DNA of 64,000 nucleotides from positions 868,001 to 932,000 of the forward strand of contig NZ_FNKA01000001.1 of assembly GCF_900101335.1 (NCBI RefSeq), read 5' to 3'. The notes beneath the pieces were generated by a model that had not been told where the DNA came from, did no database searches, and worked only from the letters and a program-made list of their open reading frames with translations. A program made the translations under genes and the position numbers. Each line of letters begins with the position of its first letter. Position 1 is the stretch's first letter. Of this stretch, positions 11,006 to 47,235 are shown piece after piece. The stretch comes from Quadrisphaera sp. DSM 44207 (GTDB lineage Bacteria; Actinomycetota; Actinomycetes; Actinomycetales; Quadrisphaeraceae).

Positions 11006-12223
11006 GTGCGCGGCGTGCGGGTCCTCCCCTCCCCCGCGCCGGACGACGCGCCCCTCCTCCTCGAGGCGCTGGGCCGCGCGCTGGCGGGCACCGGGCCGGC
11101 GCTGCTGCCGGTGCCGGACGGCGCGCCCGGGCGCGCGCTCCTGGACGCGGCCTCCCTCGGCGCGGCGCCCCCCGGCGCGGGCGCGGACGGCGATGCGGAC
11201 GGCGATGGCGGGGTCGCGCTGCTGCTGGCCACCTCGGGCTCGACGGGCGCTCCCAAGCTCGTCGAGCTGGGCGCGGCGGCGCTGCTCGCCTCGGCCCGGG
11301 CGTCGGCGCAGCGGCTGGGCGGGCACGCCCAGTGGCTGCTCGCGCTGCCGCTGCTGCACGTGGCCGGCTGGCAGGTGCTCGTGCGCAGCGCCGCGGCCGG
11401 CACCGAGCCCGTGGCGGTCGGCGAGCGCGAGCGCTCCGACCCGCGGGCCGTCGCGGCGGCGATCGCCCGCATGAGCGGCGAGCGCCGCTGCACCGCCCTG
11501 GTGCCCACGCAGCTGGTGCGCCTGCTCGAGCACCCCGGCGCCGCCGCGGCGCTGGCCGGGCTCGACGCGGTGCTCCTCGGCGGCGCGGCGAGCGCGCCGG
11601 CGCTGCTCGAGCGGGCCCGCGCCGCCGGGGTGCGGGTGGTGACGACCTACGGCGGCACCGAGACCAGCGGCGGCTGCGTCTACGACGGCATCCCGCTGGA
11701 CGGCGTCGCGGTCGCGGTGGAGCCGGACGGGCGGGTCCTGCTCGGCGGGCCGGTGCTGGCCCGCGGGTACCGCGGGGACCCGGCGGGAACGGCCCGCGCG
11801 TTCGTGCGGCGCGAGGGCCGCCGGTGGTTCGCCACGAGCGACCTCGGGCGGGTGGGCCCCGACGGCGCCCTGCGGGTGCTCGGGCGGCTGGACGACGTCC
11901 TCGTCACCGGCGGCGCCAAGGTCGCCCCGGCCGCGGTCGAGGCGGTGCTGGGCGGCCTGCCGGGCGTCGCGCAGGCGCTCGCCGTCGCCGTGCCCGACCC
12001 GGAGTGGGGGCAGCGCGTGGTGGCCCTGCTCGTGCCCGCGCGCGGCGCCCCAGGGCCGCCGGACCTGGCCGCGGTGCGCGCCGCCGTCACCGCGCGGCTC
12101 GGCGCGCCGTCCGCGCCGCGGGAGCTGCTCGTCGTCGACGCGCTGCCCGAGCGGGGCGTCGGCAAGCCGGACCGCGCGGCCGCCGCCGCCCTCGCCGTCC
12201 GGCTGCTGGAGGCGGGCGGTTAG
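11006..12223 (+). CDS. menE: o-Succinylbenzoate-CoA ligase
   Basis: A 405-residue AMP-forming acyl-CoA ligase in menaquinone synthesis, activating o-succinylbenzoate with ATP and CoA. Motifs: P-loop LLLATSGSTGAPK, TTYGGTETSGGCVYDG (A5 region), FATSDLGRVGPDGALRVLGR and the C-terminal Lys in ERGVGKPDR. It is shorter than general acyl-CoA ligases, as expected for actinobacterial MenE. TAGCGT (10994-10999) lies 6 bp before GTG 11006 and no Shine-Dalgarno is present, so a leaderless mRNA is likely. menA follows after 10 bp, supporting the assignment. Confidence 0.92.
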   Translation: MRGVRVLPSPAPDDAPLLLEALGRALAGTGPALLPVPDGAPGRALLDAASLGAAPPGAGADGDADGDGGVALLLATSGSTGAPKLVELGAAALLASARASAQRLGGHAQWLLALPLLHVAGWQVLVRSAAAGTEPVAVGERERSDPRAVAAAIARMSGERRCTALVPTQLVRLLEHPGAAAALAGLDAVLLGGAASAPALLERARAAGVRVVTTYGGTETSGGCVYDGIPLDGVAVAVEPDGRVLLGGPVLARGYRGDPAGTARAFVRREGRRWFATSDLGRVGPDGALRVLGRLDDVLVTGGAKVAPAAVEAVLGGLPGVAQALAVAVPDPEWGQRVVALLVPARGAPGPPDLAAVRAAVTARLGAPSAPRELLVVDALPERGVGKPDRAAAAALAVRLLEAGG

Positions 12224-12233
12224 CGTCGAGTCC
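12221..12233 (+). promoter_or_regulatory. menA -10 hexamer formed by the menE stop codon
   Basis: TAGCGT at 12221-12226 begins with the TAG stop of menE and ends 7 bp before the menA GTG. Spacing fits a leaderless start. No convincing -35 is visible. Confidence 0.5.
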
Positions 12234-13115
12234 GTGGCGTCGGCGGAGGAGTGGGTCGAGGGAGCGCGCCCGCGCACCCTGCCCGCGGCCGTCTCACCCG
12301 TGCTCGTGGGCACCGGCGCCGCGTTCGGCGCCGGTGCCGGCTCCCTGCCGCGGGCGCTGCTGGCGGGCGTCGTCGCGCTCGCGCTGCAGGTGGGCGTCAA
12401 CTACGCCAACGACTACTCCGACGGCGTGCGCGGCACCGACGCCGAGCGGGTCGGGCCGCTGCGCCTGACCGGTTCCGGGCTGGCGCGCCCGGAGGAGGTG
12501 CGCCGCGCCGCCCTGGTCGCCCTCGCCGTCGCGGCCGTCGCCGGCCTCGTGCTCGTGGCGGCGTCCGGGGCGTGGTGGCTGCTGCTCGTCGGCGCCCTGG
12601 CCGTGGTCGCGGCCTGGACCTACACCGGCGGTCCGCGCCCCTACGGGTACGCCGGGCTCGGCGAGGTCTCCGTCTTCGTCTTCTTCGGCCTGGTCGCCAC
12701 GCTGGGGACGGCGTACACGCAGGCGGGCGCGGTGCCGTGGCCGGCGGTGGTCGGCGCCGTGGCGGTCGGGGCGCTGGCCTGCGCGATCCTCGTGGCGAAC
12801 AACCTGCGCGACGTGCCGACCGACGCCGCGGCCGGCAAGCACACCCTCGCCGTGCGCCTCGGGGCGCCGGCGACGCGGTGGCTGTACGCGATGCTCGTGG
12901 GGCTGCCCTTCCTGCTGGCGCTCGCGACGGCGTCGTTCGCGCCCGGTGCGCTCGCGGCCCTGCTGGCCGCGCCGCTGGCGGTGCGGCCGGTGCGCGCGGT
13001 GCTGGGGGGCGCCGGTGGGCGCGCGCTCGTGCCGGTGCTCGGGCGCACCGGGGCGCTGCAGCTGGCGTACGCGCTCCTGCTCGGCGCCGGCCTGGCCGCC
13101 GGCGCGCCGTCCTGA
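12234..13115 (+). CDS. menA: 1,4-Dihydroxy-2-naphthoate polyprenyltransferase
   Basis: A 293-residue integral membrane UbiA-family enzyme that attaches the polyprenyl chain to DHNA, giving demethylmenaquinone. The two Asp-rich motifs are NYANDYSDGVRGTDAERVGP (allylic diphosphate and Mg site, about residues 60-79) and NNLRDVPTDAAAGKHTLAVR (about 188-207). About nine hydrophobic helices follow. GTG 12234 is supported by the TAGCGT hexamer 7 bp upstream. It follows menE, so both late menaquinone steps are together. Confidence 0.95.
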   Translation: MASAEEWVEGARPRTLPAAVSPVLVGTGAAFGAGAGSLPRALLAGVVALALQVGVNYANDYSDGVRGTDAERVGPLRLTGSGLARPEEVRRAALVALAVAAVAGLVLVAASGAWWLLLVGALAVVAAWTYTGGPRPYGYAGLGEVSVFVFFGLVATLGTAYTQAGAVPWPAVVGAVAVGALACAILVANNLRDVPTDAAAGKHTLAVRLGAPATRWLYAMLVGLPFLLALATASFAPGALAALLAAPLAVRPVRAVLGGAGGRALVPVLGRTGALQLAYALLLGAGLAAGAPS

Positions 13116-31219: not shown

Positions 31220-32071
31220 TCACCCCATCACGTCCTGCGCGCCGTCCGGCACCCCGGCGGGAGCCCTCGCGGGTGCGCGCCGCGCCAGCCCGGGCGCCGC
31301 GAGGGAGCGGCGGGTGAAGGCGAGCGCCTCGGCCAGGTCGGCCTCGCGCTCACCGGGGCTGCGGCTGGTGCGCGTGCTCACCTCCACCACGACCGTGCCC
31401 TCCCACGCGCTGTCCACCAGGTGGTCCAGCAGCGCCTCCACCGGCTGGTCGCCGCGACCGGGCAGCAGGTGCTCGTCCTTGGGCGAGCCCGTGCCGTCCG
31501 TCAGGTGCAGGTGGGCGAGCCGGTCGCCCATCCGGCGCGCCAGCTCCAGGCTGTCGACGCCGGCGGTGGAGGCGTGCGAGACGTCGAGCGTCATCGCGTC
31601 GTAGTCGAGCAGGCACGGGTCCCAGCCCGGCGCGTACGCGGCGAACTCCCGCGAGCGCGCCCGCCAGGGGTACATGTTCTCCACGGCGATGACGACGCCC
31701 TCGCGGTCGGCGAGCTCGCGCACGCCGGGCACGAACCCCGCGGCGTACTCGCGCTGCCAGCGGAAGGGCGGGTGCACGACCACGGTGTCCGCCCCGAGGC
31801 GGTGCGCCATCTGAGCCGCGCGGGTGACCTTCGGCCACGGCTCGCGCCCCCACACGCGCTGGGTGAGCAGCAGCGTCGGCGCGTGCACCGACAGGACGGG
31901 CACGCCGTAGTGCTGCACCAGCTCCGCGACCGCGTCGACGTCCTGGCTGACCGGGTCGGACCAGACCATGACCTCGACGCCGTCGTAGCCGAGCCGCGCC
32001 GCCATCTCGAAGGCGTCGGCGCAGCCCTGCGGGTAGGCCGAGGCCGTGGAGAGGGCGACCGGCACCACCAT
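31220..32071 (-). CDS. Xylose isomerase-like TIM-barrel (sugar phosphate isomerase/epimerase)
   Basis: A 283-residue AP-endonuclease-2/xylose-isomerase-like barrel. Metal-site strands are seen in [54 protein letters not shown] and [11 protein letters not shown]. Substrate unknown. ATG 32071 is supported by TAGGCT (32083-32078) 6 bp upstream, whose first three bases are the TAG stop of the upstream esterase. It precedes acuC by 7 bp. Confidence 0.88.
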
Positions 32072-32083
32072 GCCGCCAGCCTA
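32072..32083 (-). promoter_or_regulatory. Isomerase -10 hexamer formed by the esterase stop codon
   Basis: TAGGCT (32083-32078) starts with the esterase TAG stop and ends 6 bp before the isomerase ATG, the spacing of a leaderless start. Confidence 0.5.
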
Positions 32084-33280
32084 GGCCCCGGTCCGCGGGC
32101 TCCTCGCGCCGTGCTCGAGGAAGAACCGCACCATCTGCGCCGAGGCGTCGGGGCCCGACGGGTCCGCGTAGGAGCCGGCCGCGCTGCCCCCGGACCACGC
32201 GTGCCCGGCGCCGCGCACGGCCCACTGCTCGGCGACGACGCGGTCGCGGGCGTCGCGGTGCACGGTGCGCCGGTAGCGGCGCCCGCCGCTCTCGCCGTCC
32301 TCGACCACGGCCGAGCCCCGCTCGCCGAGCGGCGCGCCGTCCGGGCCGGGCGCCGCGAGGCGGGAGGCCACCAGGCGCTCGGCGTTGACGGGGGCGACGG
32401 TGGGGTCCTGGTCGCCGTGGAAGACCACCAGGGGCACCGCCAGCGCGGGGCCGGGCGCGCCGCCGCCGCGCATGGCGGCGAACGCGGACGGCGCGTCGGT
32501 GGCGCTGCCGGCCGCCAGGCCGCTGTGGACCCCGACGGCGGCGAAGAGGTCCGGGTGCGTGGTGCCCAGCACGGCGGCCATGGCCCCTCCGGCGGACAGG
32601 CCCGCGACGAAGACCCGCTCGGGGTCGACGGCGTGGCTGCCCGCCACCTCGCGGACGATCGCGGCGAGCAGCGCGGGCTCGCCGGCGTCGCGCCCCTGGT
32701 CGCCCGGGCGGAACCAGTTCCAGTAGCGGCCGTGGTTGGCCGCGCGGGACTGCTCCGGGTAGGCGACGAGGAAGGTGCGCTGCTCGGCGAGGTGGTCCAT
32801 GCGCGTGCCGGCCACGAAGTCGGCGGCGTCCTGGGTGCCGCCGTGGAGCATCACCACGAGGGGCACGGGCCGCCCGTCGTAGCCGCTCGGGACGTACAGG
32901 TCGTAGGTGCGCGACCCCGCCGGCCCGGTGTGCGTGCGGTGGAGGACCTCGCCGGGCAGGTCGGCGCGGGCGGAGGCGCCACCGCGCCCGTCGCGCCCGG
33001 GCGCCGTCCCGCGGCGGACCGGAGGCAGCCGCGTCGGCAGGCGCGACGACAGGTCCTCGAGCAGCCCGCGCACGCCGCGGGAGCCGCGCGCCGCGCCTCC
33101 TGGGGCCTGCGCCGCGGCGTGCGCCGTCGGGTGCGCCGTCGGGTGCGCCGTCGGGGCGTGCGCCGCGGGGCGCGCTCCCGCACCGCCGAGGCCCCGCTGC
33201 AGCAGGGCGGTGGCCTCGGCCACCCGCCCGCTGCGGGTCAGGTGCAGCGCCTCCACCAGGGTGCTCCGCTGGTCCTCCAC
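32081..33280 (-). CDS. PHB-depolymerase-family esterase (LpqC-like)
   Basis: A 399-residue alpha/beta-hydrolase of the esterase PHB depolymerase family, cleaving polyester or feruloyl-type esters. The catalytic domain (about 130-395) has the oxyanion segment PLVVMLHGGTQDAADF, nucleophile GLSAGGAMA, acid region VFHGDQDPTVAPVNAERL and His in GAGHAWSGG. The first 120 residues form a low-complexity linker with AHPTAHPTAH encoded by three 12-bp repeats (33119-33154). No signal peptide is visible, so intracellular mcl-/scl-PHA or acetylated substrate is possible. GTG 33280 follows GGAGGG. The ribbon-helix-helix gene lies 59 bp upstream. Confidence 0.88.
   Translation of the reverse strand: MEDQRSTLVEALHLTRSGRVAEATALLQRGLGGAGARPAAHAPTAHPTAHPTAHAAAQAPGGAARGSRGVRGLLEDLSSRLPTRLPPVRRGTAPGRDGRGGASARADLPGEVLHRTHTGPAGSRTYDLYVPSGYDGRPVPLVVMLHGGTQDAADFVAGTRMDHLAEQRTFLVAYPEQSRAANHGRYWNWFRPGDQGRDAGEPALLAAIVREVAGSHAVDPERVFVAGLSAGGAMAAVLGTTHPDLFAAVGVHSGLAAGSATDAPSAFAAMRGGGAPGPALAVPLVVFHGDQDPTVAPVNAERLVASRLAAPGPDGAPLGERGSAVVEDGESGGRRYRRTVHRDARDRVVAEQWAVRGAGHAWSGGSAAGSYADPSGPDASAQMVRFFLEHGARSPRTGA
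33119..33154 (-). repeat. Three perfect 12-bp repeats in the esterase linker
   Basis: GTGCGCCGTCGG repeated three times on the plus strand, encoding the AHPT linker repeat. Confidence 0.93.
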
Positions 33281-33339
33281 GCTCGGGTCCCTCCGTCGGG
33301 AGCGGCGCCCTCGGCGCCGCCCTGCTCGTGCGGCCCCGG

Positions 33340-33735
33340 TCATCGCGTCCGGGCCGCCAGGGCGGCCTTGACCGCCCGCGGGGCCCGCAGGGCCCCCAGC
33401 ACCTCGACCGACGCGATCGTCGCGAGCGCGAGCTCGGGCGGGACGTCGTCGGCGATGCTCGCGAGCCCCAGGACGCGCAGGTCGACCGTGCGACCGGCGT
33501 CCCGCAGCTCCTCGAGCTCGCGGCGGGTGACGTGGCGCGTGCCGAGCGCGAGGGTGCGCCGGGCGACGCTCTGGTCCACCGCGCCGGCCCGGGTCTCGAG
33601 CTGGCGGCGGACCGCCGTCCGGATGAAGTCCGTGCGGTTGGCGTAGAAGCCCTCGTCGACCAGCAGGTCGATCTGCCCGAGGTCGACCAGGCCGAGGTTG
33701 ACCGTGATCTTCTCGGTCTTGTCGACCTCCGCCAC
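33340..33735 (-). CDS. Ribbon-helix-helix (CopG/Arc-like) regulator linked to the esterase
   Basis: A 131-residue protein with an N-terminal RHH domain: KITVNLGLVDLGQIDLLVDE as the beta strand and first helix, then FYANRTDFIRTAVRRQLET. The rest (about 60-131) is helical and unassigned. Members of this family are found next to PHB-depolymerase-like esterases. GTG 33735 follows GGGAGG. A perfect palindrome in the promoter spacer is the likely target of autoregulation. Likely cotranscribed with the esterase, 59 bp downstream. Confidence 0.85.
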   Translation of the reverse strand: MAEVDKTEKITVNLGLVDLGQIDLLVDEGFYANRTDFIRTAVRRQLETRAGAVDQSVARRTLALGTRHVTRRELEELRDAGRTVDLRVLGLASIADDVPPELALATIASVEVLGALRAPRAVKAALAARTR

Positions 33736-40580: not shown

Positions 40581-41984
40581 GTGAGCTCCCGAGCAGGCCG
40601 CGCCCGCCCCACCTACCGCTGCGCCGAGTGCGGCTGGACGTCGGCGAAGTGGGTGGGCCGCTGCGGCGAGTGCCAGGCGTGGGGCACGGTGGAGGAGGCC
40701 GCGGCGGCGCCCGGGCGCACCGCGCCGGTGGCCGTGAGCACCCCGGCGCGGCCCATCGCCGAGATCGACGTCGAGCCGGTGCGCGCGCGCCCGACGGGGA
40801 TGGAGGAGCTCGACCGCGTGCTCGGCGGCGGGCTGGTGCCGGGGGCGGTGGTGCTGCTGTCGGGCGAGCCGGGCGTGGGCAAGTCCACCCTGCTGCTCGA
40901 CGTCGCCTCCCGCGCGGCGGCCTCCGGGCGCACGGTGCTGTACGTCACGGGCGAGGAGTCCGCGGGCCAGGTGCGCCTGCGCGCGGAGCGCATCGGCGCG
41001 CTGCGCCCCCGCCTCTTCCTCGCCGCCGAGGGCGACCTCGGCAGCGTCCTCGGGCAGGTGGAGGCGGTGCGCCCCGACCTGCTGGTCGTCGACTCCGTGC
41101 AGACGGTCGCCTCCGCGGACGTCGAGGGCGCCGCCGGCGGGGTCGCGCAGGTGCGCGAGGTCGCGGCCGCGCTCGTGCGCGCGGCCAAGGAGCGCGCGAT
41201 GGCCACGCTGCTCGTCGGCCACGTCACCAAGGACGGCTCGCTGGCCGGCCCGCGGGTGCTCGAGCACCTGGTGGACGTCGTCTGCTCCTTCGAGGGCGAC
41301 CGCCACTCGCGGCTGCGCGTCGTGCGGGCGGTGAAGAACCGGTTCGGCCCCACCGACGAGGTCGGCTGCTTCGACCTGTCCGACACCGGCATCACCGGGC
41401 TGACCGACCCCAGCGGCCTGTTCCTCTCCCGCTTCCCCGGCGAGGACGGCGCGGCCGCGCCCGTGCCGGGCACCTGCGTCACCGTCACCGTCGAGGGGCG
41501 CCGCCCGCTGGTGACGGAGGTGCAGGCCCTCGTCGCCGCCACGAGCGCGGCCAACCCGCGGCGCACCGTCAGCGGCCTGGACTCCAGCCGCGTCGCGATG
41601 GTCGTCGCCGTCCTCACCCGCCGCTGCCGCCTGCCCCTCGCCGGCCAGGACGTCTACGTCGCCACCGTCGGGGGCGTGCGCCTGGGCGAGCCGGCGGCCG
41701 ACCTCGCCACCGCCCTGGCGCTGGTCAGCGCGACCACCGACGTCGCCGTGCCCGCGGGCACCGTGGCGTTCGGCGAGATCGGCCTGGCGGGCGAGGTGCG
41801 GCCGGTGCCGGGCCTGCAGCGCCGGCTGTCGGAGGCCGCGCGCCTGGGCTTCACGACGGCGGTGGTGCCCGCGGGCGCCGTCCAGGAGGCCCCCGACGGC
41901 ATCACGGTGGTGCCGGTCACGGCCGTGTCGCAGGCGGTCACCACGGTGCTCGCGGACTCCGCCGGCGCCTCCGCGCGCCCCTAG
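40581..41984 (+). CDS. radA: DNA repair protein RadA (Sms)
   Basis: A 467-residue ATPase for recombination intermediates. The zinc finger uses C14, C17, C28 and C31 (YRCAECGWTSAKWVGRCGEC). Walker A is SGEPGVGKSTLLLDVAS with Lys 101, Walker B LLVVDSVQTV, the RadA-specific motif VKNRFGPTDEVGCFD follows, and a C-terminal Lon-protease-like domain ends the protein (GEIGLAGEVRPVPGLQRRLS). GTG 40581 has TAGCGT (40569-40574) 6 bp upstream, leaderless. Its TAG stop is part of the disA -10-like hexamer. RadA-DisA pairing is widespread. Confidence 0.97.
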   Translation: MSSRAGRARPTYRCAECGWTSAKWVGRCGECQAWGTVEEAAAAPGRTAPVAVSTPARPIAEIDVEPVRARPTGMEELDRVLGGGLVPGAVVLLSGEPGVGKSTLLLDVASRAAASGRTVLYVTGEESAGQVRLRAERIGALRPRLFLAAEGDLGSVLGQVEAVRPDLLVVDSVQTVASADVEGAAGGVAQVREVAAALVRAAKERAMATLLVGHVTKDGSLAGPRVLEHLVDVVCSFEGDRHSRLRVVRAVKNRFGPTDEVGCFDLSDTGITGLTDPSGLFLSRFPGEDGAAAPVPGTCVTVTVEGRRPLVTEVQALVAATSAANPRRTVSGLDSSRVAMVVAVLTRRCRLPLAGQDVYVATVGGVRLGEPAADLATALALVSATTDVAVPAGTVAFGEIGLAGEVRPVPGLQRRLSEAARLGFTTAVVPAGAVQEAPDGITVVPVTAVSQAVTTVLADSAGASARP

Positions 41985-41993
41985 ACTGGACGG
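41982..41993 (+). promoter_or_regulatory. disA -10 hexamer formed by the radA stop codon
   Basis: TAGACT (41982-41987) begins with the radA TAG stop and ends 6 bp before the disA GTG at 41994. No Shine-Dalgarno is seen. Confidence 0.52.
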
Positions 41994-43076
41994 GTGCCCG
42001 AGGACCGCACCGAAGAGGGCCTGCTGCGCACCACGCTGGCGGCGGTGGCCCCGGGCACCCCGCTGCGCGACGGCCTGGAGCGCATCCTGCGCGGGCGCAC
42101 CGGCGCGCTGATCGTCCTCGGCCACGACCCGACGGTGGAGTCGCTGTGCACCGGCGGCTTCGCCCTCGACGTCGACTTCGCCGCCACCCGCCTGCGCGAG
42201 CTCGCGAAGATGGACGGCGCCATCGTCTGCGACGGCGCCGTCACCAAGATCGTGCGCGCGGCGGTCCAGCTGGTGCCCGACCCGAGCATCGAGACGAGCG
42301 AGTCCGGCACGCGGCACCGCACGGCCGAGCGCGTGGCCAAGCAGACGGGCCTGCCGGTGGTCTCCGTCAGCGCCTCGATGAACATCGTCGCCCTCTACGT
42401 GGGCGGACGGCGGCACGTGCTGGAGGGCTCCGAGGCGATCCTCGCCCGCGCCAACCAGGCCCTGGCGACCCTGGAGCGCTACCGCGCGCGCCTCGACGAG
42501 GTCACCGGCACCCTCTCGGCCCTGGAGATCGAGGATCTCGTGACCCTGCGCGACGTCGCGAGCGTCGTGCAGCGCCTGGAGATGGTGCGGCGCATCTCCG
42601 AGGAGATCGCCGGCTACGTCGTCGAGCTCGGCATCGACGGCAGGCTGCTGTCCCTGCAGCTCGAGGAGCTCGTCGGCGGGATCGGCCCGGACCGCGAGCT
42701 CGTCATCCGCGACTACCTGCCCCCCGGGCGCTCGGACCGCACGGTCGCCGACGTCCTGGCCGACCTGGCCGCGCTCGGGTCCAGCCAGCTCGTCGACCTC
42801 GAGGCCCTGGCCGCGGTGATGGGCCTCGTCGTCGACGGGGAGTCCCTCGACGGCGCGGCGAGCCCGCGCGGCTACCGGCTGCTGTCGAAGGTGCCGCGGC
42901 TGCCCCCGGTCGTCGTGGACCGCCTGGTGGACCACTACGACGGCCTGCAGAAGCTCCTCGCCGCCAGCACGGAGGACCTGATGACGGTCGGCGGCGTGGG
43001 CGAGCAGCGGGCTCGGGCGATCCGCGAGGGCCTGTCGCGGCTGGCGGAGTCCAGCATCCTCGAGCGGTACGTCTGA
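41994..43076 (+). CDS. disA: DNA integrity scanning diadenylate cyclase DisA
   Basis: A 360-residue enzyme making cyclic di-AMP from two ATP while scanning DNA. The catalytic DGA is residues 74-76 ([16 protein letters not shown]) and RHR is 107-109 ([16 protein letters not shown]), matching the family positions almost exactly. A helical linker (about 150-285) and a C-terminal helix-hairpin-helix DNA-binding region ([20 protein letters not shown]) complete the three-domain architecture. GTG 41994 lies 9 bp after the radA stop. Confidence 0.97.
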
Positions 43077-43160: not shown

Positions 43161-44414
43161 TCAGCGCGAGCTGCCCGCCCGGCGCTTGGTGTAGACGTCG
43201 AAGGCGACGGCCAGCAGCAGGACGAGGCCGCGGATGATCGACTGCGTGGGCTGCTCCACGTTCAGCAGCTGCATGCCGTTGCTCATCACGGCCATGATCA
43301 GGCCGCCGACCATCGCGCCGACGACCGTGCCGACGCCGCCCGTGACCGCCGCACCGCCGATGAAGGCGGCCGCGATGGCGTCGAGCTCGAACATGTTGCC
43401 GGCGTTCGGCTGGGCCCCGTTGGAGCGCGAGGAGAAGATCACGCCGGCCACGGCGGCGAGGAAGCCCATGTTGACGAAGATCCAGAAGTTGACCTTCCGG
43501 ACGTTGACGCCGGACAGCTGCGCCGCCGACAGGTTGCCGCCGATCGCGTACACCTGGCGCCCGAAGACCGTGCCGCGGGTGACGAGGGAGTAGGCGATGA
43601 TCAGGACCGCGAGGATGATCAGCACGATCGGCAGGCCGCGGCTGTGCGCCAGCTGCCACGCGAAGGCCATGACGACCGCGCCGACGAGCACGATCTTCAG
43701 GGCGAACAGCGGGAAGGACTCCACCACCTGCTGGTAGCGCACCTTCGCCTGCCGGGTGCGGAAGCTCATGACCGCGTACGCCGCCACCGCGAGGGCAGCG
43801 ACGAGCAGCGTGAAGGCGTCGTAGCCGCTGCCGCCGAGCAGGCCGTTGAGGAAGCCGCTCGCGACCTGCTGGTACTCGGCCGGGAACGGCGAGAGGGAGA
43901 CGTTGCCGAGCACCTGCTGCGTCATGCCGCGGAAGAGCAGCATGCCGGCGAGGGTGACGATGAACGCCGGGATGCCGACGTAGGCCACCCAGAAGCCCTG
44001 CCACGCGCCGACGACCAGGCCGACGACGATCGCGGCGACGACGCCGAGCCACCACGGCACGCCCTGCTGGATCACCAGGACGGCGGAGGCGGCTCCCGCG
44101 AGGCCGGCCACCGACCCGACCGACAGGTCGATGTGGCCGGCGATGATGACGATCACCATGCCGATCGCCAGCACGAGGATGTAGGAGTACTGCAGGACGA
44201 TGTTGGTGATGTTGATGGGGCTCAGCAGCACGCCGTCCGTGAGGACGGTGAACAGCGCCACGATCGCCACGAAGGCGATGTAGATGCCGCTCGTGCGCAG
44301 GTTGCGCGTGAACAGGCCCTTGAGGTCGCTCGTGCCGCTGTGCAGGGCGGCCGACGCGCTCCCCTCGGGGCCGCTGGGCGTCGAGCCCGAGGGCCGGGTG
44401 GCGGTGCTGGTCAT
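43161..44414 (-). CDS. mmsB: Sugar ABC transporter permease (MmsB/GguB/XylH type)
   Basis: A 417-residue permease of the multiple-monosaccharide importer family (ChvE-GguAB). About 10-11 TM helices; the signature [20 protein letters not shown] is the conserved loop of the BPD_transp_2 family, and [18 protein letters not shown] is the ATPase-contact segment. ATG 44414 overlaps the ATPase stop by 4 nt. It is the last gene of the operon, followed by a bidirectional terminator. The upstream operator links it to the arabinose regulon. Confidence 0.94.
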
Positions 44415-45949
44415 CGGACGGCGTCCTTCTCCTTGGTCATGAGCTCCATGAGGCTCTCCTGCGTGGCCCGCTCGATGGGCACCTCGCCGGTGATCCTCCC
44501 GGCCGACAGCGTGTAGATGCGGTCGCAGATCCCGAGCAGCTCCGGCAGCTCGGACGAGATGACGACGACGGCCTTGCCCTCGGCGACGAGGCGGTTGATA
44601 ATCGTGTAGATCTCGTACTTGGCGCCGACGTCGATGCCGCGGGTGGGCTCGTCGAGGATCAGCACGTCGGGGTCGGCGTAGATCCACTTCGACAGCACGA
44701 CCTTCTGCTGGTTGCCCCCGGAGAGCTTGCCCACGACGGACATCACGGTCGGGGCCTTGATGTTCATGCTCCGCCGGCTGTCCTCGGCGACCTTGATCTC
44801 CTCGTTGCCGTTGACCCAGCCGCCGCGGGACAGCTTGCCGAGCGCCGCCGCGGAGACGTTGCGCTTGATGTCCTCGATGAGGTTCAGGCCGTACTTCTTG
44901 CGATCCTCGGTGGCGTAGGCGATGCCATGGCGGATCGCCTCCTGCACCGTGCGCGCCTTGATCTCCCGGCCGCGCTTGTACAGGCGCCCGGTGGTGTTGC
45001 GCCCGTAGGAGTGCCCGAAGACGCTCATCGCGAGCTCGGTGCGCCCGGCGCCCATGAGGCCCGCGATGCCGACGACCTCGCCGGCGCGCACGGACAGGTT
45101 CGCGCCGTCGACGACCTTGCGGTCCTGGGTGGGGTGCCACACCGTCCAGTCCTCGATCCGCAGGACCTCCTCGCCCGGGTGCGACTCGCGCTCGGGGTAG
45201 CGGTGCTCCAGGTCGCGCCCGACCATGCCGCGGATGATGCGGTCCTGGGTGACCCCGTCGGCCTTCATGTCCAGGGTCTCGATGGTCCGGCCGTCGCGGA
45301 TGATCGTCACCGAGTCGGAGACCGCCTCGATCTCGTTGAGCTTGTGCGAGATCATGATCGAGGTGATGCCCTGGCCCTGCAGGTGACGCAGCAGCCCCAG
45401 CAGGTGCTCGGAGTCGGTGTCGTTGAGCGCGGCGGTGGGCTCGTCGAGGATCAGCAGGCGCACGTTCTTCGACAGCGCCTTCGCGATCTCCACGAGCTGC
45501 TGCTTGCCGACGCCGAGCTGGCCGATCGGCGTGGTGGGGTTCTCGTCCAGCCCCACGCGGGCGAGCAGCTTGGCCGCCTCGGCGTTGGTGCGGTGCCAGT
45601 CGATCAGGCCGCCCCGGCCGCGCTGCTCGTTGCCGAGGAAGATGTTCTCGGCCACCGACAGGTGGGGCACCAGGGCGAGCTCCTGGTGGATGATGACGAT
45701 GCCCTTGTGCTCGCTGTCGTTGATGCCCGAGAACTCCACGCGCTCGCCGTCGAACCAGATCTCGCCCTCGTAGGAGCCCGCGGGGTAGACCCCGGAGAGC
45801 ACCTTCATGAGGGTCGACTTCCCCGCGCCGTTCTCGCCGCAGATGGCGTGGATCTCCCCGCGGCGCACCGCCAGGGAGACGTCCTGCAGCGCCTTGACGC
45901 CCGGGAAGGTCTTGGTGATGGAGCGCATCTCCAGGATGTGGTCGCTCAT
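44411..45949 (-). CDS. mmsA: Sugar ABC transporter ATP-binding protein with two ABC domains (MmsA/GguA)
   Basis: A 512-residue tandem ATPase. Domain 1 (about 1-245) has Walker [17 protein letters not shown], signature [18 protein letters not shown] and Walker [14 protein letters not shown]. Domain 2 (about 260-505) has the degenerate P-loop [16 protein letters not shown] typical of sugar importers of this class, signature [20 protein letters not shown] and Walker [19 protein letters not shown] 45949 follows AGAGGCGGC. A hairpin separates it from chvE, likely lowering its expression relative to the binding protein. Confidence 0.95.
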
Positions 45950-46012
45950 GCCGCCTCTGCCGTCCTCGTCCAGTGGTGCACAGATGATGCGCGCTCGGGT
46001 CGCCGGGTGCTA

Positions 46013-46065
46013 GCAGGGGCCCGCCCCGGCAGCGGCTGGAGAACCGCTGCCGGGGCGGGCCCTGC
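46013..46065 (-). terminator. Intercistronic hairpin between chvE and mmsA
   Basis: A 22-bp stem with a single bulged G (46013-46035 with 46044-46065) and an 8-nt loop, 22 bp past the chvE stop. Its position between binding-protein and ATPase genes suggests partial termination or mRNA protection. Confidence 0.88.
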
Positions 46066-46086
46066 TCGCCGTGGTGCCGCGGTGGC

Positions 46087-47235
46087 TCAGCCGGCGGACT
46101 GGCCGGACGCCACCTCCTCGGCGGTGTAGTAGCCGGTGTCGATCAGCTGCTGCTGGATCGTGTCCTGGTAGACGGTCTCGATGGGCAGCAGGTAGGCGGG
46201 GACGACCTTGACGCCGTTGTCGTACGTCTCGGTGTCGTTGGCCTCCGGCTCCCCGCCCTCCAGGAACGCCTGCGTGGAGGTGATGGCCTGCTCGGCCAGG
46301 TTCCGCGTGTCCTTGAAGATCGTGGAGCTCTGCACGCCGTCGGCGATGAGCTTGACCGAGGCGATCTCCGCGTCCTGGCCCGTGACGACCGGGATGGGGT
46401 TGCTGCCGCTGCCGTAGCCGGCGTTCTGCAGCGCGGTGATGATGCCGCGGGAGAGGCCGTCGTAGGGCGAGAGGACGCCGTCCACGCGGCTGCCGTCGCT
46501 GTACGTGGAGGTCAGCAGGTCCTCCATGCGGCGCTGCGCCGTCTCCTGCTGCCAGCGCAGCGTCGCGGCCTGCTCGATGGACGTCTGGCCCGACTTCACG
46601 ACCACGGTGCCGTTGTCGATGAAGGGCTGGAGGACCTCCATCGCGCCGCCCCAGAAGAAGTGGGCGTTGTTGTCGTCGAGGGACCCGGCGAACAGCTCGA
46701 CGTTGAACGGGCCGGTGGCCTGCCCCGGCGTGCCGTCGCGGTTGAGGACCCCGAGGCCGGCGAGCAGGGCGGTGGCCTGCTGGCGCCCGACCTCCTCGTT
46801 GTCGAAGGTCACGTAGAAGTCGACGTTCTCGCTGTCGCGGATCAGGCGGTCGTAGGAGATGACGGGGATGCCCGCGTCGGCGGCGGCCTGCAGCTGCCCG
46901 CTCAGCGCCGTGCCGTCGATGGCGGCGACGACGAGGGCGTCGGCGCCCTGCGTGATCATCTGGTCGATCTGCTGCTGCTGCGTGGGGATGTCGTCGTTGG
47001 CGTACTGGAGGTTGACCTCGTAGCCGGCGGCCTCCAGGCCCTCCTCGACGGACGCGCCGTCGGCGATCCACCGCTCCGACGTCTGGGTCGGCATCGCGAC
47101 GCCGATCGTCAGCTCGCTGGGGTCGGCGTTCGCGGTGTCCTGCGTGCTGCCGCCGGCACCCTCGCCGCCGCAGGCGGTCAGGCTGAAGGCCAGGGCGGAC
47201 CCCAGGGCCACCACGCCGAGCTTCTTGCTCACCAT
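46087..47235 (-). CDS. chvE: ChvE-type sugar-binding lipoprotein
   Basis: A 382-residue lipoprotein binding monosaccharides for the MmsA/MmsB importer. The signal has lipobox LTAC followed by GGEG. The mature protein resembles ChvE: TIGVAMPTQTSERWIADGAS, QMITQGADALVVAAIDGTAL, VISYDRLIRDSENVDFYVTF, VELFAGSLDDNNAHFFWGGA, VTGQDAEIASVKLIADGVQS. ChvE in Agrobacterium binds arabinose, galactose, xylose and glucose. ATG 47235 follows GAGGAGGAG. An operator shared with araBDA and the LacI-type gene lies upstream, so L-arabinose is the most likely cargo. Confidence 0.95.
   Translation of the reverse strand: MVSKKLGVVALGSALAFSLTACGGEGAGGSTQDTANADPSELTIGVAMPTQTSERWIADGASVEEGLEAAGYEVNLQYANDDIPTQQQQIDQMITQGADALVVAAIDGTALSGQLQAAADAGIPVISYDRLIRDSENVDFYVTFDNEEVGRQQATALLAGLGVLNRDGTPGQATGPFNVELFAGSLDDNNAHFFWGGAMEVLQPFIDNGTVVVKSGQTSIEQAATLRWQQETAQRRMEDLLTSTYSDGSRVDGVLSPYDGLSRGIITALQNAGYGSGSNPIPVVTGQDAEIASVKLIADGVQSSTIFKDTRNLAEQAITSTQAFLEGGEPEANDTETYDNGVKVVPAYLLPIETVYQDTIQQQLIDTGYYTAEEVASGQSAG

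Follow-up and report, generated by a model that had tools for sequence, protein, structure and literature searches.

In Quadrisphaera sp. DSM 44207, the TAG stop codon of a gene repeatedly forms the first half of the predicted −10 hexamer of the gene that follows it. This arrangement occurs in excess over expectation, its downstream genes mostly lack a Shine-Dalgarno (SD) sequence and show no enrichment of a −35 element, the −10 is conserved where the stop is absent, and the stop lies at different positions in close relatives. The sharing is real and recurrent, yet it is assembled from known parts. We consider it probable that the leaderless −10 is the older, conserved element and that the upstream frame was captured by its in-phase TAR (TAG or TAA), giving fused junctions.

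The window, a stretch of 64,000 nucleotides (positions 868,001 to 932,000 of contig NZ_FNKA01000001.1), contains three such junctions, each read directly in the DNA. On the plus strand, menE (11006 to 12223; o-succinylbenzoate-CoA ligase, NF005877) ends in a TAG (12221 to 12223) that opens TAGCGT (12221 to 12226), the predicted −10 (TANNNT) of menA. The GTG of menA (12234 to 13115; NF004751/TIGR00751), a predicted leaderless gene, lies at 12234, 7 nt after the hexamer, and both start and −10 are kept in 10 family genomes. Also on the plus strand, the TAG of radA (sms; 40581 to 41984, TIGR00416; our codon-based caller favors a start at 40653) at 41982 to 41984 begins TAGACT (41982 to 41987), a predicted −10 that is kept in relatives and stands 6 nt before the GTG (41994) of disA, the predicted leaderless diadenylate cyclase gene (41994 to 43076; NF010009). 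On the minus strand, a PHB-depolymerase-type esterase gene (32081 to 33343; NF050058/PF10503; start at 33280 favored by the codon-based caller) stops at a TAG (32083 to 32081) within TAGGCT (32078 to 32083), the predicted −10 of a gene for a xylose-isomerase-like TIM-barrel protein (31220 to 32071; PF01261), likewise predicted to be leaderless, whose ATG at 32071 follows 6 nt after the hexamer. Thus all three window junctions read TAGNNT-N6/7-RTG, with TAG as the in-frame stop of the upstream gene. The initial annotation had described the same three junctions, and rereading found all of them correct; the pattern it proposed to count, TAGnnnT, is in the wrong register and misses all three sites, for which TAGNNT is the correct form. 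Family profile searches showed that menE, radA, and the esterase gene each extend 11 to 14 residues past their own family-profile match, which ends at residue 394 of 405, 453 of 467, and 408 of 420, respectively. Elsewhere in the window, a dip in GC content (70.7% across 44 to 48 kb) covers a minus-strand ABC transporter set at 43161 to 47235 (permease, ATPase, and a sugar-type periplasmic binding protein), which was perhaps acquired.

Stops at the shared position were counted in 1.26 Mb of the 3.20-Mb draft assembly of the same genome (1.2 Mb in stretches, plus the window). Gene starts came from our own codon-usage script, with promoters and ribosome sites not used in start choice; the caller allows overlaps of up to 60 nt, so that long read-through overlaps may be undercounted. 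The 1,128 genes called end in TGA (1,014), TAG (111), or TAA (3), and in the 711 adjacent same-strand pairs the upstream stop is TGA in 648 and TAG in 62. A gap of 9 to 11 nt together with T at the sixth base was found for 13 of 62 TAG pairs and 0 of 648 TGA pairs (Fisher p = 5e-15). An excess of TAG over TGA was the outcome on which the initial annotation had staked its proposal, and on this point the claim survives. With the discovery window held out, the counts were 10 of 56 and 0 of 612 (p = 8e-12), and when alternative starts were permitted they were 16 TAG and 1 TGA.

Chance or miscalled start codons are an extremely unlikely source of this pattern. TANNNT is a weak motif and the starts rest on codon scores, but only 0.07 fused pairs are expected under independence, against 13 observed, the excess persists in the hold-out comparison, and the menA and disA starts are conserved in relatives. 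Chance is thereby refuted for the class, although any single junction could still be due to it. Translational coupling, in which ribosomes terminating 9 to 11 nt before a start re-initiate there and TAGNNT is incidental, would suit the short gaps and the missing SD sequence. However, coupling requires neither TAG nor T at position 6, and among pairs with a 9- to 11-nt gap T stands at base six in 13 of 13 TAG junctions (TAGNNT) and 0 of 10 TGA junctions; moreover, the hexamer is conserved at menA and the isomerase gene where no upstream gene adjoins. We therefore regard coupling as very unlikely. In the same genome, overlaps of the ATGA/GTGA type account for 140 of the 648 TGA pairs. A separate minus-strand pair (G000, C1:1-400000; gap 8, TAGGAGGCCCTGTG) has its TAG stop within an SD sequence (TAGGAGG) and is thus an instance of the already described stop/SD overlap.

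Fused junctions were also found in Quadrisphaera sp. INWT6 (3 in 400 kb) and Actinotalea lenta (4); 2 of these 7 use TAA, which fits TANNNT too. Arthrobacter agilis and a further genome from the same class, with 71% GC, gave zero fusions, though leaderless-type −10 boxes occur in both. Pooled over the three positive genomes, 20 of 106 TAR pairs and 0 of 1,082 TGA pairs are fused, and permutation of stop identity gave a mean of 1.8 and a maximum of 9 in 20,000 permutations compared with the 20 observed.

The properties of the hexamer identify it, as far as sequence can, as the known leaderless promoter of Actinobacteria. TANNNT with a spacer of 6 to 8 nt precedes the start of 128 of 1,124 genes (~11%), compared with 2.4 at control spacers (~50-fold). 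Divergent genes, at which no upstream stop is possible, show the same peak 6 to 8 nt before the start (66 of 412, versus about one per position elsewhere). The third base of TANNNT is G in 64% of cases at divergent genes and in 36% of background TANNNT; the usual −10 of this genome therefore already begins with TAG. An SD core is present in 3 of 20 fused genes and 5 of 109 divergent genes with a box, compared with 781 of 1,636 genes without a −10 (48%), in agreement with the initial annotation, which had noted the missing SD. Nor do the shared bases form an SD sequence 5 to 8 nt before the start, since the gap is 9 to 11 nt and 17 of 20 fused genes lack an SD core. No excess of a −35 element was found at fused, unfused, or divergent boxes, as is likewise reported for M. 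tuberculosis (PMC3898074). TANNNT about 12 bp upstream of the start is a mark of leaderless genes (PMC3160421); in M. tuberculosis, 73% of primary transcription start sites have TANNNT and the −35 is not conserved (PMC3898074). The boxes described here end 6 to 8 nt before ATG or GTG, mostly without an SD, and are kept at orthologous starts, which favors the leaderless-promoter reading offered in the initial annotation; from these features we infer promoter activity and leaderless translation of the downstream genes.

Comparison of relatives separated the −10 from the stop. Upstream of disA, three Quadrisphaera-type relatives carry TANNNT at the spacing seen in the window, as do nearly all of the Cellulomonadaceae and Sanguibacter sampled. 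The radA stop coincides with the box in the window itself and in eight of the relatives compared, one of which uses TAA; 22 have an unfused box. The −10 is present with the radA stop elsewhere in L061 to L063 and in many Cellulomonadaceae. Micrococcaceae and Intrasporangiaceae have disA without the −10, mostly with a purine-rich, SD-like stretch instead. The fused state requires at least 4 changes on the DisA tree. Sanguibacter suarezii has TAAGAT before disA where its sisters have TAGGAT, so that stop and −10 both survive a change of the third base. In Sanguibacter suaedae, TGGGAT replaces the disA −10, with no clear substitute.

The shift of a stop can be followed in Actinotalea and one close Cellulomonas, in which five radA-disA junctions align gap-free from stop to start. 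Three of these (L070, L073, and L074) have a TGA or TAG stop and a TAC-type box, while the other two (L066 and L068) have TCG at the place of that stop and the box TAGGAT. The RadA tail is 12 residues long in junctions of the former type and 17 in those of the latter, suggesting that the radA stop of Actinotalea shifted 5 codons onto the −10, presumably from the unfused to the fused state. Longer RadA tails go with fusion (p = 0.006, a statistic that ignores shared descent).

At menA, the menE stop is fused (gap 11) in four family genomes (L148 to L151). In six others (L142 to L147), menA is preceded by TACGCT or TACAGT, and menE is non-adjacent or was not found. Within the genus Quadrisphaera (L142 to L144 and L146), menE and menA lie 0.8 to 1.1 kb apart, and the menA −10 is of the TAC type, not the TAG type. 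All 12 homologues of the isomerase gene that were examined (L153 and L244 to L254) carry TANNNT immediately upstream of a plausible start, and an esterase match upstream was found in 0 of these 12. At all three downstream genes (disA, menA, and the isomerase gene), the −10 is thus retained in relatives that lack the upstream gene or have its stop at another place, which indicates that it is conserved in its own right.

These data bear on the proposal of the initial annotation that stop and −10 are reused as one signal. Joint selection, with termination on the −10 keeping ribosomes off the promoter and insulating the next gene, could account for the sharp spike of boxes at position 0 and for the scarcity of boxes within an upstream frame (3), and selection on the fused state could explain why fusion is kept in the four menE/menA relatives. 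We nevertheless judge it unlikely, since the same boxes are conserved without the stop, TAA can stand in for TAG, and unfused tandem boxes (75) outnumber fused ones (20). The earlier interpretation as a whole is partly supported.

Under capture, which we prefer, the downstream genes would have leaderless promoters whose sole recognizable element is the −10 hexamer TANNNT, usually TAGNNT, ending 6 to 8 nt short of the start codon, with transcription predicted to begin at or next to that codon. The −10 would be the constrained, older element and the stop would have been attached secondarily, an order suggested by the comparison of relatives. An upstream frame arriving in phase would be ended by the first three bases of the box, TAG (or TAA). 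Because stop codons are rare in DNA of 77% GC, loss of the original stop would commonly extend an upstream frame as far as a conserved in-phase TAR. Genes would thereby be packed as closely as is possible without depriving the downstream gene of a promoter of its own, with 9 to 11 nt from stop to start.

The phase of the boxes is consistent with this course of events. Twenty-three boxes touch the upstream frame: 20 serve as its stop, against one-third predicted by random phase (p = 1.6e-7), and the other 3 fall within it. In M. tuberculosis genes, TANNNT is depleted in all frames, and in mycobacteria recoding that creates TANNNT yields spurious transcripts (PMC10653884). Most simply, read-through frames would persist only if a box brings them to an end; frames that cross a box out of phase are rare and have probably been selected against, the selection being our reading of this rarity.

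Through stop/−10 sharing, the choice of stop codon and the length of protein C termini in GC-rich genomes become linked to promoter sequence in a way that can be counted. Gene pairs 9 to 11 nt apart that operon predictors join may be separately transcribed, and TAR usage would reflect more than release factors and base composition. In a bolder and, to us, rather doubtful extension, stop/−10 fusion would be a type of gene junction favored by selection in GC-rich actinobacteria, a promoter counterpart of the ATGA overlap, shaping TAG/TAA usage and letting operon-like pairs be expressed separately at the smallest spacing.

An earlier description of a stop/−10 overlap was not found in the open-access literature searched, which does not prove its absence. 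The closest known systems are the leaderless sigma-A promoters of Actinobacteria (PMC3160421, PMC3898074, and PMC4633059), which share the hexamer, the spacing, the RTG starts, and the lack of an SD, and which may also be similar in the −35, a weak TTGAC in Streptomyces that has no counterpart found in M. tuberculosis (PMC3898074). They differ in that here the first three bases double as the upstream stop, a feature not described in the passages searched in the three reports. The stop/SD overlap (PMC2784483) is similar in that a stop is part of the signal that initiates the following gene on the same strand, and stop codon usage and spacing are shifted. However, the signal shared here would be a promoter element on DNA and not a ribosome site on RNA, and stop/−10 sharing favors TAG/TAA at a gap of 9 to 11 nt, whereas the stop/SD overlap favors TGA/TAG at a gap of 5 to 8 nt. 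ATGA/GTGA overlaps also share bases at a gene junction, but they represent translational coupling on a shared mRNA without a promoter, and in this the stop/−10 junction differs from them.
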